From the NCBI GenBank assembly GCA_022827345.1, contig JAJDTB010000057.1, positions 1 through 64,000 on the forward strand: a DNA stretch of 64,000 bases. Direction: 5' to 3'. The first letter of the stretch is position 1, and the number at the start of each line of letters is the position of its first letter. Source of the stretch: Gemmatimonadota bacterium (lineage in GTDB: Bacteria; Gemmatimonadota; Gemmatimonadetes; Longimicrobiales; Gaopeijiaceae). Made by a program: the position numbers and the translations under genes. The notes beneath the pieces were generated by a model. That model was not told the origin of the DNA, ran no database searches, and saw nothing but the letters and a program-made list of their open reading frames with translations. Positions 3,671 through 39,742 of this stretch are shown piece after piece.

Positions 3671-5350
3671 ATGCGCATCTTCGCCGTCCTCGCCGTTGCG
3701 TCCCTCGCCGCAAGTCCCACCCTGGTCGCGCATGCCCAGCCGGACCGCTCCGGCACGATGGCGGGCCGCTCCACCGTCTACGCGCCGAATGGGGTCGTCG
3801 CCAGCAGCCAGCCACTCGCTACCGGTGCCGGGCTGGCCGTGCTGCAGCGCGGCGGCAATGCGATCGATGCCGCCGTGACCACCGCCGCCATGCTGAACGT
3901 GGTCGAGCCCATGATGACCGGCGTCGGCGGCGACATGTTCGCGATCGTCTGGCTGGCCGACGAGCAGCGCATGGTGGGACTGAACGCGAGCGGACGCGCC
4001 GGCGCGCTGATGACCCGGGAAGAGCTGGTTGACCGAGGTCACGAGAGCATGCCTCGCTCGGGCGCCGAGACGATCACCGTCCCCGGCGCCCTCGCAGGTT
4101 GGCAGACGCTGCTCGACACCCATGGCACGATCTCGCTCGCCGAAGCGCTCGAGCCCGCGATCCGGATGGCGGAGGAGGGATTCCCGGCGAGCCCGGTCAT
4201 CGTCGACTTCTGGGAGGGCGCGCAGGAGATGCTCAGCCGGGACGAGGGCGCGCGGGCGACCTTCCTGATCGACGGCAAGCGGGCTCCGCGCGCGGGCGAA
4301 TGGTTCAGCAACCCCGACTTCGCGCGCACGCTGCGCCTCATCGCAAAGGGCGGGCCGGACGTGCTGTATGGCGGGAAGCTGGGTGAAGAGATCGTGCAGC
4401 GCGTCTCCGAGCTGGGCGGCTTCCTCACCATGGACGATCTGCGGTCGCATCGCGTGGACTGGGTCGAGACTATCTCCGTCCCGTACCGGGGCTATCGCCT
4501 CCATGAACTGCCGCCCAACGGCCAGGGGATCGCCGCCCTTGAAATCCTCAGACTCCTGGAGCCGTTCGATCTGCAAGCCATGGGACACAATTCCGTCGCG
4601 TACCTGCACCACCTCATCGAGGCCAAGAAGCTCGCGTACGCCGACCTGGAGCATTTCGTCGGCGATCCGTCCACCATGGAGGTTTCACCGGACGAGCTGC
4701 TCAGCGACGCGTTCATCGATTCGCGCAGGGCGCTGCTCGACCCGGAGCGCGCGATCGAGCGGGCCGATCCCGGAACCGCGATCACCGCGAGCGAGACGAC
4801 GTACTTCACCGTCGCCGATCGGCATGGCAACATGGTGTCGTTCATCAACAGCATCGCCAGCGCGTTCGGGTCGGGCGTGGTGGTTCCGGGGACCGGATTC
4901 GCGCTGCAGAATCGCGGCGTGGGGTTTTCGCTCGACGCAGGGAGCGCAAACGCGGTGGCACCGGGACGGCGGCCGTTCCATACGATCATTCCGGCCTTCG
5001 TGACGAAGACGGCGGCCGATGGACGGGAGGAGCCGTGGCTGAGTTATGGGGTGATGGGCGGCGCAATGCAGCCCCAGGGCCACGTCCAGGTGCTGCTCAA
5101 CCTCGTGGAGTTCGGCATGGACCTGCAGGGGGCGCTGGACGCTGCGCGCTTCAATCACCTGGACGGGAATCGAGTGGCGATCGAGCCTGTCGTCCCGCTC
5201 GAGGTGCGCCGACAGCTGGAAGCGATGGGGCACGTGCTGGCCGACCCCGAGGGCGTGTTTTTCGGCGGCGGGCAGGCGATCATGCGGCTGGAGCGGGGAT
5301 GGGCGGCCGCCTCGGAACCACGAATGGACGGGATGGCGGCCGGGCACTGA
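3671..5350 (+). CDS. ggt: gamma-glutamyltransferase (Ntn hydrolase)
   Basis: Cleaves or transfers the gamma-glutamyl group of glutathione and related compounds, usually in the periplasm. From ATG 3671 (AAGGAG upstream) it encodes 559 residues with a Sec signal peptide ending near 'AHAQ'. The precursor has the large-subunit start 'GVVASSQPLATGAGLAVLQR' and the GGNAIDAAV motif. The autoprocessing site is at 'ETTYFTVAD', where Thr376 would become the N-terminal nucleophile of the small subunit. Downstream 'GSGVVVPGTGF' and 'FHTIIPAFV' match the small subunit. Length matches the family. In-frame codons upstream of 3671 do not look like coding sequence. It is monocistronic and convergent with the next gene. 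Confidence 0.93.
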   Translation: MRIFAVLAVASLAASPTLVAHAQPDRSGTMAGRSTVYAPNGVVASSQPLATGAGLAVLQRGGNAIDAAVTTAAMLNVVEPMMTGVGGDMFAIVWLADEQRMVGLNASGRAGALMTREELVDRGHESMPRSGAETITVPGALAGWQTLLDTHGTISLAEALEPAIRMAEEGFPASPVIVDFWEGAQEMLSRDEGARATFLIDGKRAPRAGEWFSNPDFARTLRLIAKGGPDVLYGGKLGEEIVQRVSELGGFLTMDDLRSHRVDWVETISVPYRGYRLHELPPNGQGIAALEILRLLEPFDLQAMGHNSVAYLHHLIEAKKLAYADLEHFVGDPSTMEVSPDELLSDAFIDSRRALLDPERAIERADPGTAITASETTYFTVADRHGNMVSFINSIASAFGSGVVVPGTGFALQNRGVGFSLDAGSANAVAPGRRPFHTIIPAFVTKTAADGREEPWLSYGVMGGAMQPQGHVQVLLNLVEFGMDLQGALDAARFNHLDGNRVAIEPVVPLEVRRQLEAMGHVLADPEGVFFGGGQAIMRLERGWAAASEPRMDGMAAGH

Positions 5351-5365: not shown

Positions 5366-6871
5366 CTACTGGCAGCCTCCCCTCTGCCTCCGGTTCAGGA
5401 AGTCGTACTCCGCATCTTCCTGGCCTGCGCCCGCGGGCGCTCCGGCGGCGACGAGTGCTTCGACGACCGACTCGTACTTCAGTGCCCTGGCCTGGTCGAG
5501 CGCCGTGAGGCCTTCGGGGGATGTCCTGGCGAGGTCCACGCCCGCGTCCACGAGCAGCTGCACCTTCTCCAGGGTTTCCCGCTCGTGCTCCGGCGTGCAG
5601 ACGAACTGGTAGACCCAGGGCCTTCCTGCGTTGGCCATGCCCACGGCCGCCATGAGTGCCGTGGTGATCTCCAGTTGCCGCGCCGCAAAGATCCCGGAGG
5701 TCAGGGCGCCGTCGCTGCCGGCGAAGTACTCGCTCCGGTGGACGAACCGGGGGTCGGCGCCGTGCTCGAGCAGGCTGCGCAGGATGCCCGCCGTGCCGAA
5801 ACGGGCGGCCAGCCATACCGGACGGGCGCCGATCCAGCCGTTGTGGAAGTAGAAGGCCTGGTTTGACCCGCGCTGATGGGGTGTGAAGGTCGCAATCGGG
5901 AGGCTGAAGTCGGCCCCGTGCTCCAGGAGCAGGTCGACCGAGCGCTGGTCGTGGCGCAGAATCGCGGCGTGCAGTGCCGTGAACCTCTCGGATCCGGCGT
6001 CGGGGTCCGCGCCGGCCTCCAGCAGGAACTCCACGAGGTCTCCGAAGCGCCCGGGACGAAATCCCTCCCGGCCGCCCACCGTGTAGGGACCGCCCGATGA
6101 GAAGGTCGGCTCGGTTACCTGAGTGCGGAAGTTGGCGTAGGCGGCCATGGCCAATGCGCTGACGCCGAACCCGGATCTGTCGTTCAGGTCGGCACCGCCG
6201 GCCACCAGGTGCCGCGCCGATTCCACATCGCCCACCCGCGCTGCGAACAGCAGGGCGGTGTTGCCGCCGTGCTCGAACCAACCCTGGTTCTGAATGTGCG
6301 TATGGGGTTCGTGCGCCCTCATCTCCACCGTGACCACCGTTCGGACGTGCACATCGGCTCCGTGTTCCACCAGGACCCTCGTCACGTCAGGCGCGAGGTT
6401 CAACACCGCCCACATGAGTGCGGTCTGGTTCCGCGGCCCCGTGGCGTCCGGGTTCGCTCCGTTCTCCAGGAGCATCTCCGCCACCCGCGCGCTCCCCGCC
6501 CGTGCTGCGGCCATGAGGGGCGTCTCTCCGTGGCGCAATGCCCGGTTCGGATCCGCACCGGCATCCAACAGCAGCCCGGCCACCGCCACACCGCCGTTCT
6601 CGCCGGCGGCCCAGAGCGGCGTCGCACCCAGGTCGTTGGCCCGGTTCACATCCGCACCGGCCTCGATCAGCAGTTCCACGCTCTCGGGCAGATCGCGGTG
6701 GCTGGCCCACAGGAGCGCCGTTGAACCGTCGCCCGCCGTGGCGTTCACGTCCACACCTTCCTCGACCAGCGCGCGCAGAGCCGCCTCGTCGCCGTTCCTG
6801 GCGGCTTCCACCACCGGAGGCGGGTCGCCCGCCGCGGCGAGGACCGCCATGAGTGCCAGGGACAGCATCAT
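5366..6871 (-). CDS. secreted ankyrin-repeat protein
   Basis: From the double ATG at 6871 this encodes 501 residues with a short signal peptide (MMLSLALMAVLAAAG), so it is probably periplasmic. About ten ankyrin units follow, for example 'DGSTALLWASHRDLPESVEL', 'GATPLWAAGENGGVAV', 'TPLMAAARAGS' and 'TALHAAILRHDQ'. The start overlaps the stop of the preceding EF-hand gene by ATGA, so it is the last gene of the DUF1592-DUF1552-FmdB-NHL-EF-hand-ankyrin series. It lacks the C-terminal CVSC ending seen in the ankyrin proteins of the two tandem modules further right. The partner is unknown. Confidence 0.85.
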   Translation of the reverse strand: MMLSLALMAVLAAAGDPPPVVEAARNGDEAALRALVEEGVDVNATAGDGSTALLWASHRDLPESVELLIEAGADVNRANDLGATPLWAAGENGGVAVAGLLLDAGADPNRALRHGETPLMAAARAGSARVAEMLLENGANPDATGPRNQTALMWAVLNLAPDVTRVLVEHGADVHVRTVVTVEMRAHEPHTHIQNQGWFEHGGNTALLFAARVGDVESARHLVAGGADLNDRSGFGVSALAMAAYANFRTQVTEPTFSSGGPYTVGGREGFRPGRFGDLVEFLLEAGADPDAGSERFTALHAAILRHDQRSVDLLLEHGADFSLPIATFTPHQRGSNQAFYFHNGWIGARPVWLAARFGTAGILRSLLEHGADPRFVHRSEYFAGSDGALTSGIFAARQLEITTALMAAVGMANAGRPWVYQFVCTPEHERETLEKVQLLVDAGVDLARTSPEGLTALDQARALKYESVVEALVAAGAPAGAGQEDAEYDFLNRRQRGGCQ

Positions 6872-7524
6872 CCGATCCCCTCTCTTCTCATCAGCATTTG
6901 CAGGTGTTCCTGTGCCACGTACAGACCGCCCTCCCCCTCGTGCCATGTGACCAGCCCGTCTCCGTTCGCGTCCACGCCGTTCCGGAGCTGGAAGGCCAGG
7001 GTGTTGAGCTCGTCGGACAGTTGTTCCGCTTCCTCCGCGGACTCCGTCGCCAGGATGCCCTCGGTGATCTCCAGCATCCTGCGGGCGCGCTCCAGGGTGT
7101 TGCGCACGCAACTCACCACATGCGCTGCGTGTGTCCGCACATTTTCCGACGCATCGGGCGAATCGGCCGCCATCCGGATGTGTTCGATGGTGTTCCGGGA
7201 TGCCTCGAAGAGCCCGAAACCCAGGCCCGGGCCGCTCTCTCTGCGGGTGGGATCCAGAGCGTGAAGCACGTTGCCCGCGTGGGTCTTCATGGCCTGGAGG
7301 TCGCCGGGTCGCTGTTGACCGCCTGCGGCGAAGGCCGCGTATTCGGCCGCGGTGCCGGCTTCTCCCACGGCCTGCCGCAGGAAGCCCAGTTCCGCCACCG
7401 AGGTGGCCTCGGGATTGACTACCTGGAGAATGTGGGCGTGGGCCCCGTTCTGTGCGCCGGCGGTGGCGGTCGGGAGTCCCAGGAGGATCGTGAGTCCTGA
7501 CGCGATCGCGGCACGTGTGATCAC
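6868..7524 (-). CDS. secreted protein of unknown function with one EF-hand loop
   Basis: I do not recognise the family. The 218-residue product starts at a GTG that overlaps the stop of the propeller gene (GTGA). It has a Sec signal peptide ending around 'TATAGAQ'. The middle is helical and His-rich (about residues 75-135), and the C-terminus carries a textbook calcium-binding EF-hand loop, 'DANGDGLVTWHE', with Asp, Asn, Asp, Thr and Glu at positions 1, 3, 5, 9 and 12. Position in a coupled series with a DUF1592 cytochrome suggests a periplasmic accessory role, possibly metal- or haem-related; that is inference. Confidence 0.75.
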   Translation of the reverse strand: MITRAAIASGLTILLGLPTATAGAQNGAHAHILQVVNPEATSVAELGFLRQAVGEAGTAAEYAAFAAGGQQRPGDLQAMKTHAGNVLHALDPTRRESGPGLGFGLFEASRNTIEHIRMAADSPDASENVRTHAAHVVSCVRNTLERARRMLEITEGILATESAEEAEQLSDELNTLAFQLRNGVDANGDGLVTWHEGEGGLYVAQEHLQMLMRREGIG

Positions 7525-8474
7525 CTGTCTTCGACCTTCCGATACTTCCTCAGATACCAGACCTCGGAAGGATCGTCCCAGAACTGGCCCGTGGACGGCG
7601 CCGGAGTGGATGCGTAGACGCTCCCCTGCCCGTCTGCTGCGACCCAGTGGATGGCTTTGGTATCGTCGATGGTGCGCAGCAGCTCGCCGTCGCTGGCCCG
7701 GGCGATCCAGATCCTGGCGTTCACGAGGTCGGCCACGTAGAGCCGGTCACCGTCATCGATCGACAGGCCGTACGGCGAGCCCAGATGCTCCCAGATTTCC
7801 AGGAGGTTGCCGTCAAGGTCGAAGATCTGGATGCGCGCGTTCTCGCGATCACCCACGAGCACCCGGTTGCGTGCGTCGACAACGATGGTGTGCGGCAGGT
7901 TGAACTGTCCCGGCTCGGTGCCCGCCTCGCCCCACGCCGTGACGAAACGGCCGTTGCCATCGTACTTGGCCACCCGGTTGTTCCCATAGCCGTCGGAGAC
8001 GAAGAACTCCCCGTCCGGGCCAAAGGCCACGTCCGTGGGACGATTGAAGAGATCAGGGGTCTCGCCGGCCACTCCGTATTCGCCCAGGGTCATCAGGAGT
8101 TCCCGGCCGTCATGGCTCCACTTCTTGACCTGGTGCCCCTGCCCGTCGACGGTCCAGATCGACCCGTCGGGCCCGACCCGGATTCCGTGCGCCCACTGGG
8201 CGAAGTCCTGATCCCACTGCTCCAGCAGGTTTCCATCGGCGTCCAGCTTCCACACATCGTTGGCATCGCGCCGGAAGGCGTAGACGTTGCCGTCGTCGTC
8301 GACATCCACGGCCGTTACGGTTCCCACTTCCTCGCGGGAGCCGCCCCACCCCTCCACCAGTTCGTAGCCGGTGGCTTGCCCGGGTGTGGGTGCGGCGTCG
8401 GGGGCGGCCTGGCAAGCCAGCCCCGCGCCGATGACGAGGCTTCCCGCCACCAGCCACATTGACCCCTTGCTCAT
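7521..8474 (-). CDS. NHL-repeat / six-bladed beta-propeller lipoprotein
   Basis: 317 residues from ATG 8474 (GGAGG upstream). A lipobox with Cys21 (AGLAC) marks it as a lipoprotein. The rest is a beta-propeller of NHL-like repeats, with recurring 'D.DGNLLEQWD', 'GPDGEFFVSDGYGNNRVAKY' and 'RVLVGDRENARIQIFD' units. Such propellers occur alone as ligand-binding modules or within peptidylglycine-lyase-like enzymes; no catalytic residues can be assigned. Its stop overlaps the start of the EF-hand gene and it lies 28 bases after the FmdB-like gene, so it belongs to the same transcript as the DUF1552 and DUF1592 genes. Confidence 0.85.
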   Translation of the reverse strand: MSKGSMWLVAGSLVIGAGLACQAAPDAAPTPGQATGYELVEGWGGSREEVGTVTAVDVDDDGNVYAFRRDANDVWKLDADGNLLEQWDQDFAQWAHGIRVGPDGSIWTVDGQGHQVKKWSHDGRELLMTLGEYGVAGETPDLFNRPTDVAFGPDGEFFVSDGYGNNRVAKYDGNGRFVTAWGEAGTEPGQFNLPHTIVVDARNRVLVGDRENARIQIFDLDGNLLEIWEHLGSPYGLSIDDGDRLYVADLVNARIWIARASDGELLRTIDDTKAIHWVAADGQGSVYASTPAPSTGQFWDDPSEVWYLRKYRKVEDR

Positions 8475-8502
8475 GGCCGCCTCCCTGGAGTTCCAGCCCG
8501 GT

Positions 8503-8760
8503 TCAGTGGTCTTCCGTAAGATGCTCATGCAACTCCTTGTGATCCTCATGCTGCTTTTCCCGGCGGATCCCGCTCGCGTGCGCCCGGGCGCTCTGCCGCG
8601 CGCGCTTCCTGGTGTAGTCGGAGCTGACCACGTGAAGGGAGATCAGCTTCTCCAGCTCGCGGCTATCGCAGACGGGACACCGGGGCGGGCCGGACGAGCG
8701 CAGGATCAGGCACTCGAACTGCTCACCGCACTCCCGGCACCGGTACTCGAAGATGGGCAT
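8503..8760 (-). CDS. FmdB-family zinc-ribbon protein
   Basis: A small (85 aa) protein of the FmdB / CxxC_CxxC_SSSS family. It opens with 'MPIFEYRCRECG', the family signature, and pairs Cys8-Cys11 with Cys28-Cys31 to form a zinc ribbon. The tail is very rich in His, Glu and Lys ('HEDHKELHEHLTEDH'), which could bind metal. FmdB proteins are thought to regulate or support metabolic operons, but the mechanism is not settled. It is embedded between the DUF1552 gene (16 bases upstream) and the propeller gene, consistent with an operon-specific role. Confidence 0.85.
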   Translation of the reverse strand: MPIFEYRCRECGEQFECLILRSSGPPRCPVCDSRELEKLISLHVVSSDYTRKRARQSARAHASGIRREKQHEDHKELHEHLTEDH

Positions 8761-8776
8761 CGCCCGCCACGTCGGC

Positions 8777-10135
8777 TCAGAGTTCGCCGAGGGTGTCGAT
8801 GGGAAGCCGGCCGGTGCTGCCGCCGATCTTGTCCATCGGCATCTCCATCTTGTCCATCAGCGTCGCCAGCAGGTTCGCGTGCGTCGGTCCGCCCTCGTAC
8901 CTGATGTGCTGGCCACCGTTCAGCTTGCCGTTCCCGCCGCCCACAACGACCAGCGGGATGTTGTTGCCGGCGTGACGCTGGCTGTTGGAGATCCCCGATC
9001 CGTACAGCCCGGTGATCGAATCCAGCAGCGAGCCGTCCCCGTCCGGCGTCTGGCTCAGCTTGGTCAGGTGACGCGTGAAGAGCTCCACGTGGTAGCGGTT
9101 GATCTTCGAGAGGTACTTCACGATGTCCGGCCGGTTGCCGTGGTGCGACAGCGGATGCCACGCCTCCGGCACACCGATCTGCGGATACGGCCGCGCGTTC
9201 ACTTCACGCCCGATCATCATCGTCGACACCCTGGTGATGTCCGCCTGATAGGCCAGGATCTGCATGTCCAGGAGCAGTTCCAGGTGGTCCTCCAGCGTCT
9301 CCGGAATCCCCTGCGGCTGCTCCATGTTCGGGAGGTCGACGTCCAGCTGCTGCTCGGCTACCTGGATCCGCCGTTCCACATCGCGCACCGCCTCCGTGTA
9401 CTGCTCCACGCTGCGCTGGTCCTGCGGACCCAGCTCGCGCGCCAGTGCCCGCAACTTGTCGTTGACCGAGTCCAGCAGGCTCTTCTGCTGGTGCAGGCGC
9501 CGCTCCCGCGGCTCGCGATCCGTCGTACCGGTATCGCCGAAAAGCCGCTCGAATACGGTTCGGGGATGGTTCTCCATCGGGAGCGGCTGTGTGGGGCTCC
9601 GCCAGGAAATCGTGTGGGTATATGCACAGTTCAGAATGGCGCAGGTACCGGCGTTGGGCGGTCCGTCCAGGGACAGTTCGAGGGAGCCCAGCTGCGTCTC
9701 CCTGCCCCACTCGCGCGCCAGCATCTGGTCGATCGACTCCGCGGCGATGATGTCGGTGTTGTCCACCGCCTCGACATCGCCGAGCGACCTCCCGACCATG
9801 CCGGTGAGGAAGCTGGTGGGGCCGCCGGCGTGGTTGAAGTTCCACGACGCGTTCACTCCGGTCGGAATGATGATCCTGTTCCTGAACGGCTCCAGCGGGC
9901 CCAGGATCTCCGAGAGGACGAAGTCGCGGCCCTCGCCGGTCGGGGTCCAGTGGGGCATGGCCTGCCCGTTCGGCGTGTAGTAGGCGAGGAACCTGTGGGG
10001 AGACTTGCGCCTGGGGCCACTCACCGCCGTCAGCCGGGCCGGCGTCATCGCCTCCAGGAAGGGCAGCATCAGCGCCGCTCCGGCGCCGCGAAGCACCGTC
10101 CTCCGCGAGATATGCCTACCGGTGATGAAGTCCAT
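8777..10135 (-). CDS. DUF1552 (HXXSHH) Tat-exported protein
   Basis: 452 residues. The N-terminus 'HISRRTVLRGAGAALMLPFL' is a twin-arginine signal, so the protein should be exported folded. The body matches the DUF1552 family (PF07586), recognised by the HXXSHH motif, here 'WHPLSHHGN'. The family is abundant in Planctomycetes and relatives, usually paired with DUF1592-type cytochromes; its reaction is unknown, though distant similarity to the sulfatase/phosphatase-like DUF1501 group has been noted. The start overlaps the end of the DUF1592 gene by 20 bases, so the two are coupled. It is the most diverged of the three DUF1552 copies here. Confidence 0.9.
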   Translation of the reverse strand: MDFITGRHISRRTVLRGAGAALMLPFLEAMTPARLTAVSGPRRKSPHRFLAYYTPNGQAMPHWTPTGEGRDFVLSEILGPLEPFRNRIIIPTGVNASWNFNHAGGPTSFLTGMVGRSLGDVEAVDNTDIIAAESIDQMLAREWGRETQLGSLELSLDGPPNAGTCAILNCAYTHTISWRSPTQPLPMENHPRTVFERLFGDTGTTDREPRERRLHQQKSLLDSVNDKLRALARELGPQDQRSVEQYTEAVRDVERRIQVAEQQLDVDLPNMEQPQGIPETLEDHLELLLDMQILAYQADITRVSTMMIGREVNARPYPQIGVPEAWHPLSHHGNRPDIVKYLSKINRYHVELFTRHLTKLSQTPDGDGSLLDSITGLYGSGISNSQRHAGNNIPLVVVGGGNGKLNGGQHIRYEGGPTHANLLATLMDKMEMPMDKIGGSTGRLPIDTLGEL

Positions 10136-12896
10136 TTTTTTCCTCTCCAGATTCCTTGTTCTGCAATACCGATTGCCCGGCCGCCGGAGCCGTGGGTGTG
10201 CTCATCCGCATCAGGAACTGCGGGCTTTCCACAATCCCCAGGATGATCGACGACCAGGTATGGTCTTCCGCCGCCGCGTCCCGGATGATCCTGCGAATGG
10301 CCGGCTGGTCATAGTACTCGACATCGCGCCCGAGGGCATACTGCATGAGCTTCGTCGTCACGGTCCGGACGAACTGTTCCCGGTTGTCCAGCATGAGATC
10401 GCGGAGGCCTGCCAGTCCCTTGATCTCCTGTTCCGTCTCCGGCCAGAGACCGGTGTCGTCCACCGGGTTGCCGAGTTCGTCGATGTACCGGAGGCCGCCC
10501 GCGGCATCGTAGGCCTCCAGCGAGAAGCCCAGCGGATCGATCGTCCGGTGGCAACTGGCGCACATCGGCTCCGTGCGGTGCTTGGCGAGCCGCTCACGAA
10601 TCGTCGGCTTCCGAACCGTCCCCTGGTCCTCGGGTATTTCGAGGCTGGTGTCGAGGTTGGCCGGCGGTGGCGGAACGTGGCGGCCCAGGATGTTCTCGAG
10701 AATCCACTTGCCCCTGAGCACCGGAGTGGTCCGCTCCGGATACGACGTGAGGGTCAGGATGCTCGCGTGGCCCAGCAGACCACCCCGCTTCTCGAGATCG
10801 GGGAGTTCGACGCGACGGAAACGGCTCCCGGCCACGTTTGGAATGTTGTAATGCTCGGCCAGCCGTTCGTTGACGAAGGTGTAGTCGGCGCCGATCAGCT
10901 CCACGACGCTCCTGTCTTCGCGGATCGTGTGGTCGAGGAAGAGCCTGGTCTCCTCTTCCATGGCCTCGCGAAGGTTATGGTCGTACTCCAGGTAGATGTC
11001 GTCCTGCAGGAGCCGGTCGTCCAGTTCGCGCAGCTTCAGCCACTGGCTGGCGAAATCCTCCACGAGGGTCTCGCGGGCCCGGTCGCTGTTCAGCATCCGC
11101 CGGGCCTGCTCGCCGAGGACCTCGGGATCGGAAAGCCGGCCACGCTCAGCTTCCTGTAGCAGCGTCTCGTCGGGAATACTGCTCCAAAGGAAGAAGGAAA
11201 GGCGGGACGCAAGTTCCAGATCACTCAACGGATGGGGGTCGCCCCCGTTGAAGACCTGCGCCGCCTGCCCGGCCGCAAAGTGGACGACCGCATCGGTCGG
11301 CGGACCGTCTGCATCCGGTGTCCCGTCCGTCGCGCGTACGCCGGGGTCCCGATAGACGCGCAGCAGAAAGTCCGGATCAACCAGGACACGCTCGAGTCCC
11401 AGCTGAATGCCATGATCGAAGCTCCCGCCCTCCTCCCGGCCCATGCGGAAGAAGTGTAGGAGCACGTCCGTGTCCTCGCGGGTCACCGGCCGACGGTAGG
11501 CTCGCCGTGCCATTCGTGAAAGGATCTCTTCGGCACAGGCCTGCTCCGCCGAGGCCGACTCGGGCTCGCAGACGAAGATCGTCTCGCGGCTCAGTGTGTT
11601 GTCGGCCACATCGGTTCGGCCGAACGGGCCGTCGATCTCAATGCCGATCACGCCCGACATGCCGAAGTACTCGTTGTTGAAGTAGTCGATCTGGCTGCGG
11701 GTCTGAACCGGGGCTTGCGGGAGGAGGTACTCCTCACCGTAGCCGATGTCCCTGGCGTAGGAGAGACCGACCAGGCGGCTCCCCGCTTCTACCTGGATCG
11801 AGGCCACCAGAGCCGCCTCGGCCTCGAACTTGGCGTAATCCTCCCACTCGGGGGATCCGGGCCAACCGGGCCCCCCGCCCGCTCCGGCGTAGCTGTTGGC
11901 GACAGCCCGATGCTGCAGCGCCTCACCGCCGAACGCGAGCATGGACGCAAGTTCTCCGTCGATGCGGATTTCGAGTTCCTGTCTCCACCCCAGCCCACGC
12001 GCGTACCCCGCATAGTTCTTCTGGAGACGCACCCGGATCCGATACTCGCCGTCCACCGGGAAGGTGTGGCGGACCGCCATACCACCGCGGGAACCAAGCG
12101 GGAGATCGTCGCTCATTCTTACGTTCTGGCGCATGGCGTCGTCCGCTGCGTAGCGGAATGAGCCGGGACCGGCCGGAGGAAGCCCCACCGCCAGCCGGGT
12201 GACCGTTCGAGCCACGGACAGGTATCGCTCCATGTGGAGCGGCGAGATGCTCAGCGCGTCCGCCACGTTGTCGAAGCCGCCGCCCATGGTCTCGTCGCCG
12301 GGCAGCGCGTCGACGACATCGACGTCCAGTCCCAGCAGGTCGTTGACAGCGTTGTTGTACTCCGTCCGGTTCAGCCGGTGCACCGCGTTGATGCGGCCGA
12401 CATTCGGCTTCTCCGCCCAGGCGGCGTCCAGCTCGGACTCGAGCCAGCCCGCCACCGCGGCGTAGGTCTCATCGTCGGGCCGACTCACGCCACCCGGCGG
12501 CATGGCGCGCGCGCGCAGCTTGGCGGCCACCTTCTCCCAGATCTCGGGGTGGGCCGCAGGGTCCGCGGCGTGGTATTGATCCAGCTCCAGGGAAGCCGTG
12601 CGGCGGACATCGTTGTGGCACCGCAGGCAGTACCCGTCGACCATGGCCTGCGCTTCGGCACCCGTCGCCACGGGAACCGGCGGAGGCTCCGGGGCCTGGA
12701 CCACCCGGGGGCTTCCGTCTCCCTCGGGTGCCATGGCCCCACCTGTCGACGTCGATACGAACCTCGCGCACGAGATGAAAACCAGTCCGCCAAGGGCCAA
12801 CGCTACGGCCCATCCTCCCGGGAGGACTCGGTGACCCCTCACCAGACCGGTTTGGCACGTTGACGGCAGGCGCTTCTGCGGCCTCTCAGGCGCCAC
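10116..12896 (-). CDS. DUF1592-type diheme cytochrome (PSD/PSCyt multidomain protein)
   Basis: A large exported protein of the planctomycete-type DUF1587/1595/1592/1588/1585 architecture. Two c-type haem motifs are visible: CLRCH in the N-terminal cytochrome-like domain and CASCH in the DUF1588 domain ('CASCHRTIDPLG'). Between them are the DUF1587 region ('RINAVHRLNRTEYNNAVNDL'), a beta-rich carbohydrate-binding-like segment, DUF1595 ('RMARRAYRRPVTREDTDVLL') and DUF1592 ('ELASRLSFFLWSSIPDETLL'). DUF1585 closes the protein ('LMQYALGRDVEYYD'). The start is uncertain: the frame is open to a TTG at 12926, with GTG at 12896 (GGGGG four bases upstream, chosen) and at 12842. A hydrophobic export segment lies at 'GGWAVALALGGLVFISC'. 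Activity is unknown; oxidative catabolism or electron transfer is likely. Confidence 0.88.
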   Translation of the reverse strand: MAPERPQKRLPSTCQTGLVRGHRVLPGGWAVALALGGLVFISCARFVSTSTGGAMAPEGDGSPRVVQAPEPPPVPVATGAEAQAMVDGYCLRCHNDVRRTASLELDQYHAADPAAHPEIWEKVAAKLRARAMPPGGVSRPDDETYAAVAGWLESELDAAWAEKPNVGRINAVHRLNRTEYNNAVNDLLGLDVDVVDALPGDETMGGGFDNVADALSISPLHMERYLSVARTVTRLAVGLPPAGPGSFRYAADDAMRQNVRMSDDLPLGSRGGMAVRHTFPVDGEYRIRVRLQKNYAGYARGLGWRQELEIRIDGELASMLAFGGEALQHRAVANSYAGAGGGPGWPGSPEWEDYAKFEAEAALVASIQVEAGSRLVGLSYARDIGYGEEYLLPQAPVQTRSQIDYFNNEYFGMSGVIGIEIDGPFGRTDVADNTLSRETIFVCEPESASAEQACAEEILSRMARRAYRRPVTREDTDVLLHFFRMGREEGGSFDHGIQLGLERVLVDPDFLLRVYRDPGVRATDGTPDADGPPTDAVVHFAAGQAAQVFNGGDPHPLSDLELASRLSFFLWSSIPDETLLQEAERGRLSDPEVLGEQARRMLNSDRARETLVEDFASQWLKLRELDDRLLQDDIYLEYDHNLREAMEEETRLFLDHTIREDRSVVELIGADYTFVNERLAEHYNIPNVAGSRFRRVELPDLEKRGGLLGHASILTLTSYPERTTPVLRGKWILENILGRHVPPPPANLDTSLEIPEDQGTVRKPTIRERLAKHRTEPMCASCHRTIDPLGFSLEAYDAAGGLRYIDELGNPVDDTGLWPETEQEIKGLAGLRDLMLDNREQFVRTVTTKLMQYALGRDVEYYDQPAIRRIIRDAAAEDHTWSSIILGIVESPQFLMRMSTPTAPAAGQSVLQNKESGEEKNGLHHR

Positions 12897-12993
12897 TGTA
12901 CCCCCAATCGAACACCTTGAATCCAAGACTGCATACCAACATTGTACGCTAGCGTTCTCGCAGTCACAAGTCCACTTAGAACGAAGCGAACCG

Positions 12994-14412
12994 ATGTCCA
13001 GGACACCTGTGAGGAAAGGTGAGGAGCGTAGTGCCGATGCGCAGTCACGCAGCCTGCTCGATGCGGCTCGCTGTCCCCGGTGCTCCTCGAGGATCGACCT
13101 GGCTCCGCAGGCCGTCAGATGCCGGAAGTGCGGGCAGGTCTATCCCCGGCTGGGGCCCATTCCGGTGCTCCTTCCCGAACCGCTCGATTATTTCGCGTCG
13201 TGCGGGCGCCAGCTCGCCGGGCTCGAGGAACAGGTGGAGCGAGTAGTGAAGGATGTCCGGGAGCAGCTTCGGTCGGCGGACCTTCTGCCTTCCACCCGGC
13301 AGCGCTGCCGGACGCTGATCGAGGGCATCACCGGACAGCTGGCCGACGTCCGTGCCATTCTCGAGCCGAATCTGCCGGCTGCGGCCCGGGGCGATGTCCG
13401 CGACCGATCCGGCCGGGCACCCGCGACCCTTGACCATCTGCCGTATCTCTACCGGGACTGGGGATGGGCGCCGGAAGCGGACGGCGAGAACGAGCGGGCA
13501 CTGGCCCTTGCAGAAAGCGTCCTGCAGGGGCGGTGTCCCGGACGCACGCTGGTCATGGGTGCCGGGGCGTGCCGCTTCGCCTACGAGCTGTACCGCCGGT
13601 ACCCCGACGCGGAACTCATGGTGATGGATCTCGATCCGGTCCTCTTCTCGGCCGCGCACGCCGTAACCCACGGTGAAACCGTCACCATCCGCGAAGCCAA
13701 TCTGGAGATGGGCGACCTCGGCCAGGCGGTGAAGGAGTGGACCTTGTCGGCTCCAAACGGCCCCGTGGACGACGCACGCTTTCACTTCCTCGTGGCGGAC
13801 GCCGTCGACCCCCCGTTGGCTCCCGGGATCTTCGACACGGTACTCACGCCGTGGTTCATCGATCAGGGACCCGAGGACGTGCGTGACCTGATCAGCACGC
13901 TCCATCGGATGCTGATGCCAGGTGGGCGCTGGGTGAACCTTGGACCGCTCAAGTACAGCCTGGACGTTCCCTTCTCGCATCGCTTCGCCAGGGAGGAACT
14001 GTTCGATCTGGCCGAGCGCGCCGGGTTCCGGCTCGGACCCTGGAAGAGCGAAAGCGGGCCCTACCTGGTGTCACAGCTCAACGGCCGCGGCAAGACGGAG
14101 TGGGTGCTGGCGTTCTCTGCTACGAAAACCGTGTCAAACGAGCCGGGACCGGGGCAACAGGACGACCCGCCCCCGTGGCTCATCTTCCGGCACCTGCCCG
14201 TTCCCACCTTCGAGGGCCAGGCTCTGTTCTGGTCCGAAGCGTCCATGGTTCGCATGGTGGTCTCGTCCATAGACGGGCGCAGAACGCTGGACGACATCGC
14301 GGTCATGGTCGCCGAGCGCGCGCGCCAGTCCGACATCTCCATGGGCCAGGTCCGCACGGCAGTCAGGCAGTGCCTCCAGAAGGTCCATCCGGCGTGCGGA
14401 GCGGCCGGCTGA
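12994..14412 (+). CDS. zinc-ribbon + N2227-like methyltransferase
   Basis: 472 residues with an unusual order of domains. Residues 27-46 form a Trm112-like zinc ribbon (Cys27, Cys30, Cys43, Cys46). Residues 145-370 resemble the N2227 / carnosine N-methyltransferase-like SAM enzymes: 'LPYLYRDWGWAPEADGENER', the SAM-binding loop 'TLVMGAGACRFAYEL' (about 185-199), an acidic 'MDLDP' near 211 and a late 'MLMPGGRWVNLGPLKY' strand. The C-terminal 90 residues ('SIDGRRTLDDIAVMVAERA') look like a PqqD/winged-helix binding domain. It would methylate a small molecule or peptide; the substrate is unknown. It is divergent from the DUF1592 operon and convergent with the serine hydrolase. Confidence 0.75.
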   Translation: MSRTPVRKGEERSADAQSRSLLDAARCPRCSSRIDLAPQAVRCRKCGQVYPRLGPIPVLLPEPLDYFASCGRQLAGLEEQVERVVKDVREQLRSADLLPSTRQRCRTLIEGITGQLADVRAILEPNLPAAARGDVRDRSGRAPATLDHLPYLYRDWGWAPEADGENERALALAESVLQGRCPGRTLVMGAGACRFAYELYRRYPDAELMVMDLDPVLFSAAHAVTHGETVTIREANLEMGDLGQAVKEWTLSAPNGPVDDARFHFLVADAVDPPLAPGIFDTVLTPWFIDQGPEDVRDLISTLHRMLMPGGRWVNLGPLKYSLDVPFSHRFAREELFDLAERAGFRLGPWKSESGPYLVSQLNGRGKTEWVLAFSATKTVSNEPGPGQQDDPPPWLIFRHLPVPTFEGQALFWSEASMVRMVVSSIDGRRTLDDIAVMVAERARQSDISMGQVRTAVRQCLQKVHPACGAAG

Positions 14413-14428: not shown

Positions 14429-16057
14429 CTAGTCCCGTGCCGCCCTGACGAAGCCACCGGCGTTGACATGGGCAAACATCCGCATCGACCCGTCACTCTG
14501 CCGGGCGAACACGTAGCGGTTGGAATCCCTGAAGCCGGCCTCGACGGGCAGTTGGCCATCGAGGGTGAACGCCTCGGGTCCCGACGGACGGTAGGGCCCC
14601 AGCCCGTCGATCACGAGCCCCCCGTCACCGCTGTCCTCCACGAGGCGACCGGCGCCTCCCGGTGCTTCGGCCTGGTCCGCGGGGATGCGGTGGTAGAGGC
14701 CGGTGTACCGGCTGACGTCCACCTCCAGATTCTCATCGACCGGCAGCCGTCCGAGGAAGTGCTCGAGCACGAGGGCGCGGACACCGCTGTGCGACGCCTG
14801 CGCCAGCACAGGTCCGGTGATCGGCTCCATCGACGAGTCGGCTGCGGCCACGTCGTCGGGGCTCGGTTCACCGCCGCCGGCCATCGTGACGAAGACTCCG
14901 ACCTGGGCGTCGAGCATGATGATCTCCAGCGAGCGGTAGCGGATGCTCCCGTAATGCTCGATCACCGGCTCGCCGTTGTACTCGTAACGGAAGAACTGGA
15001 TGCCGAACCCGCTGGCGTCCGGATGGTTGCCGCGGTCCCAGCGGTGCATGATCTCGTAGCTCTCGGGCGCCATCAGGGCCGGTGTGCTGCCCTGGCCCTG
15101 CAAGGCGTGGGCCCGGATGAAGCGGGCCATGTCGCCGGCCGAGGAGTTGACGTCGCCCGCGTACGAAATAAAGGGAGTAAGAGAGGGATAGGAGAGCGCG
15201 ACCGGTGGTTTGCCTGCAGCGAATGCGTACTGGGTCACCACGTCGGCACTGGGCGCCTGCAGGGAATTGACCAGTGTGGTGTGCGTCATGCCCAGCGGCT
15301 CGTACACGTTCTCGCGCAGGTACTCCTCCAGCGTCTGCCCGGTGATGTCTTCCACCATGAATCCCATGACGGCACTGCAGGCATTGCAGTAGTCGGAGAA
15401 CGTGCCCGGCTCGCGGACTACCGGCGGCACATTGGCCTCCAGGACCGCGGCCGAAAGCGGCGGTTGGGGGCGCTCCTCGCCCACCGAAGTGAACGGCGAG
15501 CGTGATCCCCTCGGAACCATGCCGCCCTGGTGGGTGACCATGTCCCGTATGGTGATCTCGTCGTCCCCGAAGGGGTTCTGCAGCTGGATCCGGGTCAGGT
15601 AGTCGTTGACGGGGTCGTCGAGGGACGCGATCTCGCCGCGCTCCAGGAGCTGTGCGATGGCCGTCCCGAAGAATGTCTTGGTAAGCGACCCGATACGGAA
15701 CTGCGACACGTCGGGATCGACGGGCCGCATGGTGGCGTAGTCGTGGTATCCGTAGCCCTTCTTGAAGAGCACCTCATCGCCGTGGGTTACCGAGATCGCG
15801 AGCGCGGAGATCCGGTGTTCGTCCAGCAGCGCGCCGAAGGTGCCGTCGGCCCACTGCTCGATGTTTCGCGGCTCCAGCGTCTCCGCCGCGACATTGCCTG
15901 TGACCACCGCCGGTGGCTGGGACGCCTGATCGCGCGAGTCGCACGCGGCCAGCACTCCCGGCAGCCAGGCGAGGACGAGTGCTGCCGGCAGGCGGCCCGC
16001 GGAGCGTCGGGACACTGAGCGCGGATCGTCGGGGTTGGCAAATCCTGTCATGACCAT
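14429..16057 (-). CDS. serine hydrolase lipoprotein (beta-lactamase family)
   Basis: 542 residues from ATG 16057 (AGGGAG upstream). A lipobox at 'GVLAAC' (Cys39) predicts membrane anchoring. The PF00144 fold is shown by Ser124-Leu-Thr-Lys127 in 'FRIGSLTKTFF', by Tyr223-Cys-Asn225 in 'FSDYCNACSAV' and by 'EHYG' as the third motif. The last 120 residues are a variable C-terminal domain. It lies downstream of susD on the same strand with a gap of about 75 bases and could be cotranscribed; an esterase or peptidase role on imported peptides or amides is plausible but not shown by sequence. Confidence 0.85.
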   Translation of the reverse strand: MVMTGFANPDDPRSVSRRSAGRLPAALVLAWLPGVLAACDSRDQASQPPAVVTGNVAAETLEPRNIEQWADGTFGALLDEHRISALAISVTHGDEVLFKKGYGYHDYATMRPVDPDVSQFRIGSLTKTFFGTAIAQLLERGEIASLDDPVNDYLTRIQLQNPFGDDEITIRDMVTHQGGMVPRGSRSPFTSVGEERPQPPLSAAVLEANVPPVVREPGTFSDYCNACSAVMGFMVEDITGQTLEEYLRENVYEPLGMTHTTLVNSLQAPSADVVTQYAFAAGKPPVALSYPSLTPFISYAGDVNSSAGDMARFIRAHALQGQGSTPALMAPESYEIMHRWDRGNHPDASGFGIQFFRYEYNGEPVIEHYGSIRYRSLEIIMLDAQVGVFVTMAGGGEPSPDDVAAADSSMEPITGPVLAQASHSGVRALVLEHFLGRLPVDENLEVDVSRYTGLYHRIPADQAEAPGGAGRLVEDSGDGGLVIDGLGPYRPSGPEAFTLDGQLPVEAGFRDSNRYVFARQSDGSMRMFAHVNAGGFVRAARD

Positions 16058-16133
16058 TTCACTTCTCCCTGATTCCGCGCCGCCCCGCCGGGCCGGCCTG
16101 CCGGGTCAAATCATGGCGACTCTCCCCAACCGT

Positions 16134-17381
16134 CTACGGAATGTTCTCGTTGTTTTCCCTCTCGACGTCGGGCAGAGGGAAACAGGTCGTCTCACCGTAC
16201 CGCCGGTCGTTGAACTGATCCGCTCCGGAAGGGAACGGGATGTTCAGCCGCAACATGTCGTTCAGTCGATGGCCTTCGATGAACAACTCCCGCCTCCGCT
16301 CCTCGTAGACCTGAGCCATGATCTCGGCGGGGTCTTCACTCGCGAAAGGAGGCAGCCCCGCACGGGCGTGGAGCTCGTTTATGTTGTCGACCGCCGTCTG
16401 GCCGCCCGCCGCTTCGGCGATGATCAGGAGTGCTTCGGCGTACCGTCCGATGGGAATATCCGCATCGTAGTTCGGGTACTTGGTCTGGAGCACTTCGGGG
16501 TTCAGTCCGTTGCGACCGGTATTCCCGGTGTGGATCAGCTCCACGCGCGGATCCGGCACCCCTTGCCACTCCAGATTCCAGAAGGGCACATCGACCTCGA
16601 TGTTCCGGTCGACCCAGTTGCTGCCGTACAGGTGGTTCTGCCGGGAGTTGTCCGCGGACGAGCGCGTCGCGTAGTAGGCGAATCCATCGGGCACCTGCTG
16701 GGCATCGGAGATGGCGCCGGCCATGTCACCCTGGTTGAGTCTGGCTCGGGCGCGACCCAGATAGGCCAGGGTCTGCAACTCTCCCGATCCGCTGGAGATC
16801 GCCGTGGAGAAGCGCTCTTCGGCCAACGCCAGGCTTTGGGGCGGAGAGACTTCCGGCCCGCCGTCGTAGGCCGCCGAGCAGAACCCCTCGCCGAACAGCG
16901 TGTAGGCGTAACCGGCCAATACAGCCGACCGCGCGACCATACTCTGTGATCCGGCTTCCTGGGCACGCTGGAGGTTCGAGTCCGTGAACCACCTGGCCTG
17001 CGACAGTGGCGTATAGAGACCTGCAAGCTGGCCGCCGGGACAGCCGCCGCTCGAGTAGGTACCGGTCGCCGGGGTGATCTCGCGCTGGTCGTAGATGTAG
17101 TAGGCGCCGTCGGACCCACCGCTCATGAATTCGTCCACCAGCTGGGCCGACAGGAGCACGTACTGCTGGTAGGCGCATTCGAAAACGCCTTCGGCGCTGG
17201 TGACCAGAAGAGGAAGATCTTCCGGCTGTTCCAGCTCTTCGGCCGTGATGTCGCCGGGCAGCTCCACGGCCAGGTCGCATGCTCCCAGCAGCATGCTCGC
17301 TACCAGGGCGGTGAGCCCGGCCAGGGCCCCTCCGAGGGGGCTTCCGCGCCGGTTTCGTTCACTTCGCTTCGTTCTATTCAT
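16134..17381 (-). CDS. SusD/RagB-like outer-membrane lipoprotein
   Basis: The substrate-capturing partner of the SusC receptor encoded just upstream. From ATG 17381 (AGGGA upstream) it has 415 residues, a basic n-region and the lipobox 'LLGAC' (Cys35). The body is helical and TPR-like, with 'QSMVARSAVLAGYAYTLFGE' and 'ELHARAGLPPF', and ends with the SusD-type 'YEERRRELFIEGHRLNDMLR' helix that is strongly diagnostic of the family. SusD proteins sit as a lid on SusC in the outer membrane. The substrate cannot be read from sequence; nearby peptidase and hydrolase genes hint at peptides or small organics rather than glycans. Confidence 0.87.
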   Translation of the reverse strand: MNRTKRSERNRRGSPLGGALAGLTALVASMLLGACDLAVELPGDITAEELEQPEDLPLLVTSAEGVFECAYQQYVLLSAQLVDEFMSGGSDGAYYIYDQREITPATGTYSSGGCPGGQLAGLYTPLSQARWFTDSNLQRAQEAGSQSMVARSAVLAGYAYTLFGEGFCSAAYDGGPEVSPPQSLALAEERFSTAISSGSGELQTLAYLGRARARLNQGDMAGAISDAQQVPDGFAYYATRSSADNSRQNHLYGSNWVDRNIEVDVPFWNLEWQGVPDPRVELIHTGNTGRNGLNPEVLQTKYPNYDADIPIGRYAEALLIIAEAAGGQTAVDNINELHARAGLPPFASEDPAEIMAQVYEERRRELFIEGHRLNDMLRLNIPFPSGADQFNDRRYGETTCFPLPDVERENNENIP

Positions 17382-17460
17382 GACACGTTCCCTCGGTTCG
17401 ATGATGAATGAGCGCTCTGTCGATGCTTGAAATGGGCAGTGCATTGATTCCTCTCATTCG

Positions 17461-20445
17461 TCAAAAGGACACACGGACCGATCCCTCGAGCCGTGTCAGC
17501 TGAGGGAAGATGTTCTGGCGCTGGTGGTAGTAGAAATCACTGCTCCCCCGGCTTTCGGGATCGGTATCGGCCACATCCTCGTGCACGTAGAGGAATCCGG
17601 GGTTGCGAGCCAGGAGCCCCAGCGTCGCTCGCGAAGCGCCCATTCGAGCTGCCCAGTCGCCGGGCAGCGTGTAGTGCGCCGCAACCTCGCGGATCCGGAT
17701 GTAGTCGTTCCTGTTGATCCAGTAGCCGTAGGCGTTGGACGTCTGGATCGCCGCCGCCAGAAGCGGGTTCTGCTCCAGCATGGCCGCCTCCGGGCTGTTC
17801 CTGAACACCTCGTCACGCGCCCACTCCTGGATGCTCATCACGCGCATCTGGAAGAATCCTTCGGCCATGGCCGAGAGTCTCAGGTTCTGCCCGATCTGCA
17901 TCGACGTCATCAGCGATGCGTTCCAGTCCGGGCCGGGTGAGCCGAGGAAGACCTCGCCGGCCTGGTTGCAGGGCATGGGGCCACCGTTCTCGCTGGCGCA
18001 GAGAATGTTGACTGCCCGCTGAGTTACCGGATCCCAATCCGCCGAGACCACGTTGTGGGCCCACATGCCGCCCACGGGATAGCCCTCGGCGTGGGCGTTC
18101 CCCCGTCCGCGGCTGATGAAGTCGATGTCGCCCATGTCGACGATCTCGTTCGACGTGTGGCTCAGATTCAGCGTCACGTCCCAGCTGAGGCCGGAACGCA
18201 CGAGCGGTACGACCGTCGTGGAAAAATCGAAGCCCTGGTTGTCCACCTGACCAAGGTTCACCCACTGCGAACCGGAGAAACCGGTCGAGGGCGCCACGCT
18301 TCTCTGCAAGAGCGCGTCCGTCGTCGTCTGCCGGTAGCCGGTGAACTCCACCGACCAACGGCCGTTCAACATCTCAGCGTCGAGACCGAACTCGACTTCG
18401 GAACTGCGCTCCGGCTTCAGGTTGGGGTTGCCCGGGTTCGCCGGACGGACACCGGGCTGGTCGCCTCGCGCGATCGCGGGTGCGTACGTCCGGATCGCGT
18501 CGAAGGAGCCGGGCTGGCGGCCCGCCTCGCCCCAGGCCGCGCGGACCTGGAGCTGGTCCACCCAGTTCACGTTGAAGAAATCGGCGTCGCTGAGCACCCA
18601 TGAACCGCTCAGCTTGGGATAGATGACCGGGTCGATCTCCACGCCGAATGCGCTGTTGTCGTCACCGCGGATCGCGGCGGTGATGAAGATCTGATCCCGC
18701 CATTCGAACCGTTCCTGGATATAGGCGCCCCAGGTCTTGTTCTCGCTGAAGAACTCTCCTGCGAAGCGCTGCGACGCCGTGGTCACCGTCGTCAGGGCGG
18801 GTGCGGGGAAGTTCAACCCCTCGGCGTTCGTGGTGTGCGTCTCGCGGGTATAGTACTGGATGCCTGCCGACGTCGCCGACCGTATGTCCGACGTGAGGTC
18901 GAATGTCGCCGTCGCCGCGTAGTCCAGCGTCGTCTGGAGTTCGGTGCCCTCGTCCACCTCCCTCCAGCCTTGTGCCAGGCGAAGGCCCCACATGTGGTTT
19001 GACGGGTCCTCCTGACGCGGGAACAGTCTTCCGTTCTGCTGATAGACCAGGTCGATACCGCTGGTCAGGCGGTGGGAGAACCAGTCGAACGGGTCGTGAT
19101 TGACATTGACGTTCCACGTCGTGTGGTGGACGTCGTCACGGTGGCGCACCTTCCACGTCTCCTCCGGCACCGACTGCAGGAAGCCGCGGCGCACCGTGTT
19201 CAGCGTCAATGGACTGGCAAAGATCACCTGTCCGAAGTAGCCCAGAGTACCGGTGAATCCCTCGGGTGCGCGGCCGATCTGTGCCTTGGTGTAGCTGAGG
19301 CCTGCAGTGATGCGCAGATCCTCCCTGGCTAGTGCATTAACGTTGACGCGGCCCGAGATCTGCTCGATCCAGTTGTTCGGAACAATCCCCTCGTCGTCCT
19401 GATACGAGAGCGCGGCATAGTAGCCGAAGTCACCGGTACCGCCCGTCACGTCCAGGTTGTACGTCTGCGTCATGCCGTTGAAGATCACTTCCCGGCCCGC
19501 CTGCTCCTCGGCCAGAAGCGGGTGGTGCAGGACTACGTTGCCGCTCGCGGGGTCCCGGGCGCCGTTCGTGGGAATCCACTCCGACGCGTCGTTCCAGAAC
19601 TGTGAGCCGAGGCGTACCTGGGCGTTGAACTGGGCGTCACCCGCCTGACCCTTCTTGGTGATGATCTGGATCACCCCGTTGCTGGCCTCGCTTCCGTATA
19701 GCGTCGACGCCGCCGGACCCTTCACCACCTCGACGCTCTCCACGTCCGCCGGGTTGAGGTCGTTCAGGCGCGCACCGTCCCTCGACACGCGTACCCCGTC
19801 GATATAGACGAGCGGGGTGGACCTCATGGAAACGCTGGAGATCCCGCGCAGCGCCACTGTGGTGCCGCTGCCGATGTTGCCGGATCGCTGCAGAATCGAC
19901 GCGCCGGCAATTCGTCCCTGCAGCAGCTGGTTCACCGTGGTGATAGGGGCGATCTCTACAAGCTCTGCCGCCTCGACGATGCCGATCGAGTGGCCGATCT
20001 GACGACGCTCCGTCACGCCTGCCGTCCCGGTCACAACGATCTCGTCCAGTGCAAATGCCTGCTGGCGGAGATTGAACTCCAGCAGCGTAGTCTGGCCGGC
20101 CACGACCTGGACTTGCTGGCTGGCGGTAGCGTAACCGATGTACTGTACCGATACCGTGTAGGTGCCAACCGGTATGTCCTCCAGCAGGAAACGGCCCCCG
20201 GCTCTCGCCAGACCGCCCCGTTGCAGGTTCGAGATTGTCACCTGCGCCCCCTGGAGGGCGTTGCCGCTGCCATCCTCACGAACCAGGCCCGAGATGCTGC
20301 CCTGCTGGGCCTGAAGCCCGCCCACTCCCAACAGCACCATGATGCATGCCGCCGGGAAGGGAACGAGCAGCCCCCTGGGTAGCCATCCCCGACGCCGACA
20401 TCGGGGCGGCGGTGTCGATCGGTTGCTGGGACTATCAATCCACAT
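17461..20445 (-). CDS. SusC/RagA-type TonB-dependent receptor
   Basis: A 994-residue outer-membrane active transporter. After a signal peptide ending near 'GGLQAQ' comes a carboxypeptidase-regulatory-like domain (about 45-130, 'GRFLLEDIPVGTYTVSVQYI'), then 'ALDEIVVTGTAGV', then the plug domain with 'PLVYIDGVRVSRDG' and 'EVVKGPAASTLYGSEASNGV', the SusC signature. The remaining 700 residues alternate aromatic strands of a 22-stranded barrel and end in Phe ('LEGSVRVSF'), as barrel proteins do. GGGAG lies seven bases before the ATG at 20445. susD follows 79 bases downstream, making a Sus-type uptake pair energised by the TonB/ExbBD genes at 47411-51405 or elsewhere. Confidence 0.92.
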   Translation of the reverse strand: MWIDSPSNRSTPPPRCRRRGWLPRGLLVPFPAACIMVLLGVGGLQAQQGSISGLVREDGSGNALQGAQVTISNLQRGGLARAGGRFLLEDIPVGTYTVSVQYIGYATASQQVQVVAGQTTLLEFNLRQQAFALDEIVVTGTAGVTERRQIGHSIGIVEAAELVEIAPITTVNQLLQGRIAGASILQRSGNIGSGTTVALRGISSVSMRSTPLVYIDGVRVSRDGARLNDLNPADVESVEVVKGPAASTLYGSEASNGVIQIITKKGQAGDAQFNAQVRLGSQFWNDASEWIPTNGARDPASGNVVLHHPLLAEEQAGREVIFNGMTQTYNLDVTGGTGDFGYYAALSYQDDEGIVPNNWIEQISGRVNVNALAREDLRITAGLSYTKAQIGRAPEGFTGTLGYFGQVIFASPLTLNTVRRGFLQSVPEETWKVRHRDDVHHTTWNVNVNHDPFDWFSHRLTSGIDLVYQQNGRLFPRQEDPSNHMWGLRLAQGWREVDEGTELQTTLDYAATATFDLTSDIRSATSAGIQYYTRETHTTNAEGLNFPAPALTTVTTASQRFAGEFFSENKTWGAYIQERFEWRDQIFITAAIRGDDNSAFGVEIDPVIYPKLSGSWVLSDADFFNVNWVDQLQVRAAWGEAGRQPGSFDAIRTYAPAIARGDQPGVRPANPGNPNLKPERSSEVEFGLDAEMLNGRWSVEFTGYRQTTTDALLQRSVAPSTGFSGSQWVNLGQVDNQGFDFSTTVVPLVRSGLSWDVTLNLSHTSNEIVDMGDIDFISRGRGNAHAEGYPVGGMWAHNVVSADWDPVTQRAVNILCASENGGPMPCNQAGEVFLGSPGPDWNASLMTSMQIGQNLRLSAMAEGFFQMRVMSIQEWARDEVFRNSPEAAMLEQNPLLAAAIQTSNAYGYWINRNDYIRIREVAAHYTLPGDWAARMGASRATLGLLARNPGFLYVHEDVADTDPESRGSSDFYYHQRQNIFPQLTRLEGSVRVSF

Positions 20446-29918: not shown

Positions 29919-29925
29919 ACGGTCC

Positions 29926-31320: not shown

Positions 31321-31325
31321 CGCGT

Positions 31326-35592: not shown

Positions 35593-35654
35593 GCGCAGAG
35601 TCCTCCCGCGGACTGCCGTTCCTCGCGTCCCTCGCGTCGCTCTCATCGGCGCGA

Positions 35655-37037: not shown

Positions 37038-37062
37038 GTGATTCTGTCTCCTCGGTTGGCCC

Positions 37063-39522: not shown

Positions 39523-39742
39523 GCTGGCCAATACGGTCTCAGTGGGCGGATCTGTACTCCACGTGCGTTAAGTTAACAGACACTCATCCCATGGAAATTG
39601 CTGGAGACGGGTGTGCTTTGCAAGGGTACGAGGGCCAATTGGTGGCAGTCGGTTTCCGGCCGATTCCCATCCTCGAAACTGGAGCCTGCGGACCGGACAC
39701 GACCCGGCCCGATGACGTGGTCCGCAGCCCTGGACTGCCCCC

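Follow-up and report, generated by a model that had tools for sequence, protein, structure and literature searches.

A seven-gene unit around a diverged DUF1552 gene in a genus of Gaopeijiaceae

The DNA analyzed here, a stretch of 64,000 nucleotides from contig JAJDTB010000057.1 that we call the window, carries a DUF1592/DUF1552/ankyrin trio joined by four further genes, coding for an FmdB-type zinc ribbon, an NHL propeller, a protein with an EF-hand-like loop and a CARME-like methyltransferase. The trio is a standing unit, and within the genus, whose members are uncultured, the seven genes are present or absent as one block. That the four extra genes are kept or lost together points to a shared job at the cell surface.

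Layout of the locus

Six co-directional genes occupy positions 5366-12926 on the minus strand. In order, they code for a DUF1592-type PSCyt3 protein with two CXXCH motifs (10116..12926, with an uncertain start between 12734 and 12926), a DUF1552 (HXXSHH) protein of a diverged type (8777..10135), an FmdB-type zinc ribbon of 85 aa (8503..8760), an exported NHL propeller and possible lipoprotein (7521..8549, likely start 8474), a His-rich helical protein of 218 aa with one EF-hand-like loop (6868..7524) and an exported ankyrin-repeat protein of 501 aa (5366..6871, start 6871). The seventh gene, on the plus strand (12994..14412), encodes the divergent CARME-like methyltransferase, which has an N-terminal CxxC/CxxC zinc-finger-like segment; an earlier note on this DNA had missed it as part of the unit. 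ORF coordinates and a Pfam profile search otherwise bear out the gene order and positions given in that note, including the location of the FmdB, NHL and EF-hand-loop genes between DUF1552 and the ankyrin gene. The note had also described several four-base overlaps, of which two exist (NHL/EF-hand and EF-hand/ankyrin); DUF1592 and DUF1552 overlap by 20 bases, and a gap of 16 bases separates DUF1552 from FmdB. As a whole, the earlier interpretation is partly supported.

As had been proposed, this is the third copy of the DUF1592/DUF1552/ankyrin core within the window. The other two, copies b (28128-33833) and c (33841-39531), have the same trio order and strand and differ in having no accessory genes, and their DUF1552 proteins are only 39-40% identical to that of the 5366-12926 copy. 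The whole genome holds seven DUF1592 and seven DUF1552 genes. Elsewhere in the window, an ORF with a transposase-type helix-turn-helix lies near the left end (467-829), a dimethylformamidase-like (DMFA2_C) gene is read as two consecutive ORFs (24002-26256), the second with a Mo-co dimerisation match and the split also found in a related genome (G067), and a single ORF at 26488-28131 combines a Rieske [2Fe-2S] domain with a glutamate-synthase/FMN domain.

The core trio and its partner genes

The ankyrin gene lies at most 2 kb from the DUF1592-DUF1552 pair in all 57 complete loci (9, 12, 5 and 26 by DUF1552 identity class, plus five with no assigned class), being downstream and on the same strand in 51 of them. 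The comparison of versions suggested by the earlier note thus does separate essential from accessory parts. The same trio is found on a plasmid of a soil Novosphingobium (DUF1552 43% identical), on which profile searches found none of the accessory genes, and in Sphingobium herbicidovorans genes annotated as cytochrome c and cytochrome b come after the DUF1592-DUF1552 pair. In locus L084, which belongs to the group with 44-55% DUF1552 identity, an NHL gene (7638-8744) directly follows DUF1552 in the usual place of the ankyrin gene, which is there divergent and upstream.

The DUF1592-type protein scores above the Pfam cut-off for all five of PSD4, PSCyt3, PSD3, PSD2 and PSD5; in the 872-aa reading its CXXCH motifs fall at residues 36 and 725, and its N-terminus reads as lipoprotein-signal-like. 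The adjoining DUF1552 protein (PF07586, 2.4e-86) carries the HxxSHH site and starts with a twin-arginine-like SRRTVLRG. The histidines kept in at least 90% of the 64 rows of its alignment include those of the HxxSHH site, and over 452 aa it is 95-99% identical in eight further loci of the genus. Sequence searches found no PDB relatives for DUF1592 or DUF1552, and an AF2 model of DUF1552 built from only 11 sequences failed (pLDDT 34). The ankyrin protein (Ank_2, 4.5e-48), whose signal peptide was judged by eye, is 80-97% identical in the same eight loci.

FmdB clears both curated cut-offs (PF09723, 9.4e-13, 48.4 versus 34.4 bits; TIGR02605, 5.2e-13, 48.9 versus 31.3 bits), has the CxxC...CxxC ribbon and a His-rich C-terminus, and shows no signal peptide. 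The family takes its name from a protein with a regulatory role. Sorted by DUF1552 identity, FmdB is present in 9 of 9 genus loci, 8 of the 12 relatives at 55% identity or above, none of five with 44-55% and 2 of 26 with lower values, a count that leaves aside six DUF1552 loci with no assigned identity, loci cut by contig ends and loci with no DUF1592, and in which the group of other loci is non-random, being made up of copies from the genome itself, about 20 chosen loci and others retrieved for their EF-hand relative. The difference between 8/12 and 2/31 gives a Fisher p of 1.2e-4 in a test that treats related loci as independent. One further locus with FmdB (L095) was omitted for its short downstream end and one lacking it (L086, 62% identity) for a missed gene call; including both, the nearer relatives stand at 9/14. 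L099, also lacking FmdB, has 54% or 57% identity by two comparisons and was counted in the 44-55% group; with all three among the nearer relatives the figure becomes 9/15. In the complete loci with no assigned identity, ankyrin was found in 5/5, FmdB in 1/5, NHL in 0/5 and EF-hand in 1/5; FmdB occurs in one of 40 loci devoid of DUF1552. The diverged DUF1552 type thus has FmdB as a recurring companion. FmdB sits after DUF1552 in all nine loci of the genus, but directly upstream of DUF1592 in the relatives.

The earlier note had suggested testing whether the diverged DUF1552 type is always found with the accessory genes. By these counts it is so within the genus (9/9) and not outside it, where the nearer loci have FmdB in 8/12, in the upstream position, and neither NHL nor EF-hand in any of the twelve complete loci with at least 55% DUF1552 identity. 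Since four of the twelve do without FmdB and none has NHL or EF-hand, none of these genes is needed by DUF1552 as such.

Regarding the NHL propeller (PF01436, 1.3e-24), the cysteine of its signal peptide is kept in 9/9 orthologues, with position -3 of the lipobox often not L/V/I. Its downstream neighbour, called an EF-hand protein in the earlier note, does have one canonical-looking DxNxDGxVxxxE loop that recurs in its family, but the matching profile hit is missing: the search gave no Pfam family at E 0.01 and no NCBIfam at 0.1, nor did a sequence search find a PDB match for this unnamed family. Among the 41 aligned rows, the loop residues are kept in 40 (D185), 37 (N/D187), 38 (D/N189), 39 (G190) and 29 (E196), together with seven histidines (37 to 41 of 41 each) and a GPGxGxG stretch. 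The AF2 model is a helical bundle (pLDDT 72), and its best Foldseek match, a designed bundle at E 0.038, was set aside. Members of this protein family occur in 29 of the 58 genomes from the taxonomic family and in 21 of the 23 from the genus, mostly away from DUF1552. In several genomes, a second copy of the EF-hand-loop family adjoins a small CXXCH protein (G000:C15:58440-59033, L050, L056, L073 and L078).

Outside this operon, NHL and the EF-hand-loop protein form a single ORF in L052 and L140, from two genera, and are adjacent genes in L053 and L054, from a third. The pair, whether fused or side by side, can thus be found without DUF1552, and the fusions and adjacencies are independent evidence that the two work together. 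About 4 kb separate the L052 fusion from a DUF1552 gene of the 44-55% group; joined to the DUF1552 operon, the pair is seen only in the genus of the window. The NHL genes of the closest outside relatives (L127 and L128) have neither EF-hand nor DUF1552 beside them. In L128, the closest NHL outside the genus (9000-10751, 61%) appears, by eye, fused to a beta-lactamase-like N-terminal domain. Within the genus, comparison of the window with L119, its nearest relative, gives a DNA identity of mostly 94-100% in the bins on either side but of 71-94% at about 8650-7401 (the FmdB end and NHL), and this drop suggests a replacement of the NHL allele by recombination.

The methyltransferase reaches 42.0 bits against PF07942 (cut-off 27), the match being to the domain's C-terminal part (163-234 of 268), and gives E 1.6e-05 against the carnosine N-methyltransferase structure 5yf0 and a weak, below cut-off match to the C-terminal domain of OvoA. 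By profile similarity, its nearest relatives are enzymes methylating an imidazole nitrogen. It was found in 10 of 394 genomes of the class; in the tenth (G038) its neighbour is a CXXCH protein, and the contig, a short one, lacks DUF1552. The Asp of the FID motif is kept in all ten sequences, and the His of the aligned YHF stretch in one of ten, the others having Ser, Asn, Asp or Glu; in the CARME family, the former is the imidazole-binding residue and the latter a His of the active site.

Co-inheritance of the seven genes and proposed function

Searching 154 genomes from the order, we found a near-identical DUF1552 in eight more genus genomes, nine of 23 in all. We compared the window with these eight loci, which come from records labelled Gemmatimonadetes/Gemmatimonadota and one Longimicrobiales MAG. 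In each of them the six genes recur in unchanged order, and the methyltransferase gene is divergent from them. The earlier note would have deemed the arrangement accidental if the accessory genes stood in this place in one genome only; they do so in 9/9 genus genomes with this DUF1552 type, so the arrangement is not accidental. Protein identity to the window ranges from 72 to 99% across the module genes. Against the eight orthologous loci, dN/dS is 0.035-0.27 for the six ORFs and 0.035-0.29 over every gene compared, with 0.11-0.18 for the DUF1592-type gene and 0.035-0.071 for DUF1552, which has the lowest of the ten genes measured in seven of the eight loci. According to these low values, all are genes kept by selection. 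The tight NHL/EF-hand spacing is kept in L119-L122, and small gaps are seen there in L123-L126.

The methyltransferase is present in exactly the nine of 23 genus genomes that carry the module. On the left, the module is flanked by a gamma-glutamyltranspeptidase gene (3671..5350, plus strand), with orthologues of 89-98% identity in the nine carriers and in one non-carrier, G067 (89%). There, the right-flank Abhydrolase_10 gene (20637..22718 in the window, minus strand) lies about 0.1 kb from the transpeptidase gene, leaving an empty site, and the right flank also keeps further genes and tandem copies b and c. From the shared distribution of the methyltransferase and this empty site, we delimit the unit as seven genes. 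Three carriers (L123, L125 and L126) have only these seven between the flanks. In the other six (L119-L122, L124 and the window itself), the interval further contains genes for a serine hydrolase, SusD and SusC (14429..20445 in the window, minus strand), which lie outside the minimal unit.

In an rpoB tree of 21 genus genomes, which omits the carrier G074 and also G072 because their rpoB match was missing, the eight remaining carriers fall into two clades with non-carriers between them. Both clades have the unit at one and the same site, which fits a single gain with later losses; exchange by homologous recombination could also account for its spread between the clades. As the co-inheritance rests on two carrier clades, it reflects few independent events.

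This last point would suit a history in which NHL/EF-hand, FmdB and the methyltransferase entered the module of a single ancestor and have since travelled with it by linkage, with no shared function, and so would the lack of NHL and EF-hand in all twelve nearer relatives and the G038 methyltransferase away from any DUF1552 on its contig. We nevertheless regard such chance stacking as unlikely, since gene order and purifying selection on all genes persist down to 72-80% protein identity, FmdB has been kept despite a position unlike that in the relatives, and NHL/EF-hand is a fusion pair in its own right. In addition, the SusC-SusD-serine hydrolase block, missing in three of the nine carriers, came and went, and the seven genes, missing in none, did not.

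Our preferred reading, held tentatively and at a little short of an even chance, is that a core exported trio with layered additions acts as one redox or metalloenzyme complex. Given its Tat-like start and kept histidines, DUF1552 would likely be the subunit that binds metal and carries out catalysis, and would fold in the cytoplasm before Tat exports it, as its family traits suggest. DUF1592 may pass the electrons of DUF1552 through two c-type hemes; this putative redox role is proposed from the CXXCH motifs and the neighbour genes. Ankyrin would hold the complex together. FmdB, having no signal peptide, would act in the cytoplasm before export, its task being metal loading, quality control or expression. 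NHL and the EF-hand-loop protein might be an extra exported sub-complex binding substrate or metal, and the methyltransferase might modify an imidazole, either in a partner protein or in a small substrate.

A more specific version, in which an exported heme/metal complex is matured by its own histidine-type methyltransferase and NHL/EF-hand is a new redox or metal-carrying sub-complex, is a long shot. The human enzyme CARNMT1 methylates protein histidines in C3H zinc fingers, according to passages of PMC12275196, which provides a lead for methylation of partner histidines. Candidate sites for modification before export would be the His-rich tail of FmdB, the EF-hand-loop protein and the HxxSHH site of DUF1552.

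One could argue instead for nutrient uptake, SusC/SusD and the serine hydrolase importing a substrate oxidised by an exported DUF1552/DUF1592 enzyme. Their block does share the presence/absence interval in six of nine carriers, and passages of PMC5615132 link PSCyt proteins to carbohydrate use. Even so, L123, L125 and L126 keep the seven genes without the block, and we consider this explanation quite improbable. We give still less weight to the idea that ankyrin serves the bacterium in a sponge host as a eukaryote-like effector, exported or anchored by the rest of the operon. Ankyrin proteins are reported in passages of PMC8163846 to be enriched in sponge-associated Gemmatimonadota MAGs, and some locus records look, by isolate name, like sponge MAGs; but ankyrin accompanies the pair in every complete locus across the family and on the soil Novosphingobium plasmid, and Pfam found no secretion-system gene among the module genes. 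Anti-phage defence was rejected, PADLOC having given generic ankyrin and methyltransferase matches only.

DUF1592/DUF1552 genes are abundant in several phyla, and this locus offers several handles on them: the ankyrin partner is invariant, FmdB goes with one DUF1552 type, fusions show NHL and the EF-hand-loop protein of the unnamed His-rich family to be a pair, and the unit is cleanly present or absent, with an empty site for comparison. These features indicate which proteins to co-express and test first.

Relation to known systems

Our literature searches on DUF1552, on DUF1552 with DUF1592 and on related domain names found no functional study of the pair; those on ankyrin in Gemmatimonadota found no DUF1592, and those on the FmdB family or zinc ribbon with cytochrome had nothing on this subject among the matches listed.

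The methyltransferase resembles CARNMT1 (5yf0; described in passages of PMC12275196) in its PF07942 match above cut-off, including the FID and PGG-W-N-GPL stretches, and differs from it by the extra N-terminal CxxC/CxxC segment and an extra C-terminus. Cbp2D of Cellvibrio japonicus, which has been studied as an electron donor, likewise bears DUF1587 and has c-type heme domains, but carries CBM, YceI and FN3 domains as well, and the passages on it in PMC8981238 mention no DUF1552 partner.

The closest known arrangement is that of He et al. 2017 (PMC5615132), in passages of which PSCyt2 and PSCyt3 genes adjoin gene families of unknown function in Verrucomicrobia; the function of these pairs is there stated as unknown, with carbohydrate metabolism suggested from CBM domains. 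Like the Verrucomicrobia/Planctomycetes PSCyt3 pairs, the locus in the window has a PSCyt3-type cytochrome gene next to a gene whose family has no known function, and it has the PSD2-PSD5 domains; it departs from those pairs, as those passages describe them, in its ankyrin, FmdB, NHL, EF-hand-loop and methyltransferase partners. The kind is thus already known, if functionally dark, and its seven-gene version is new.
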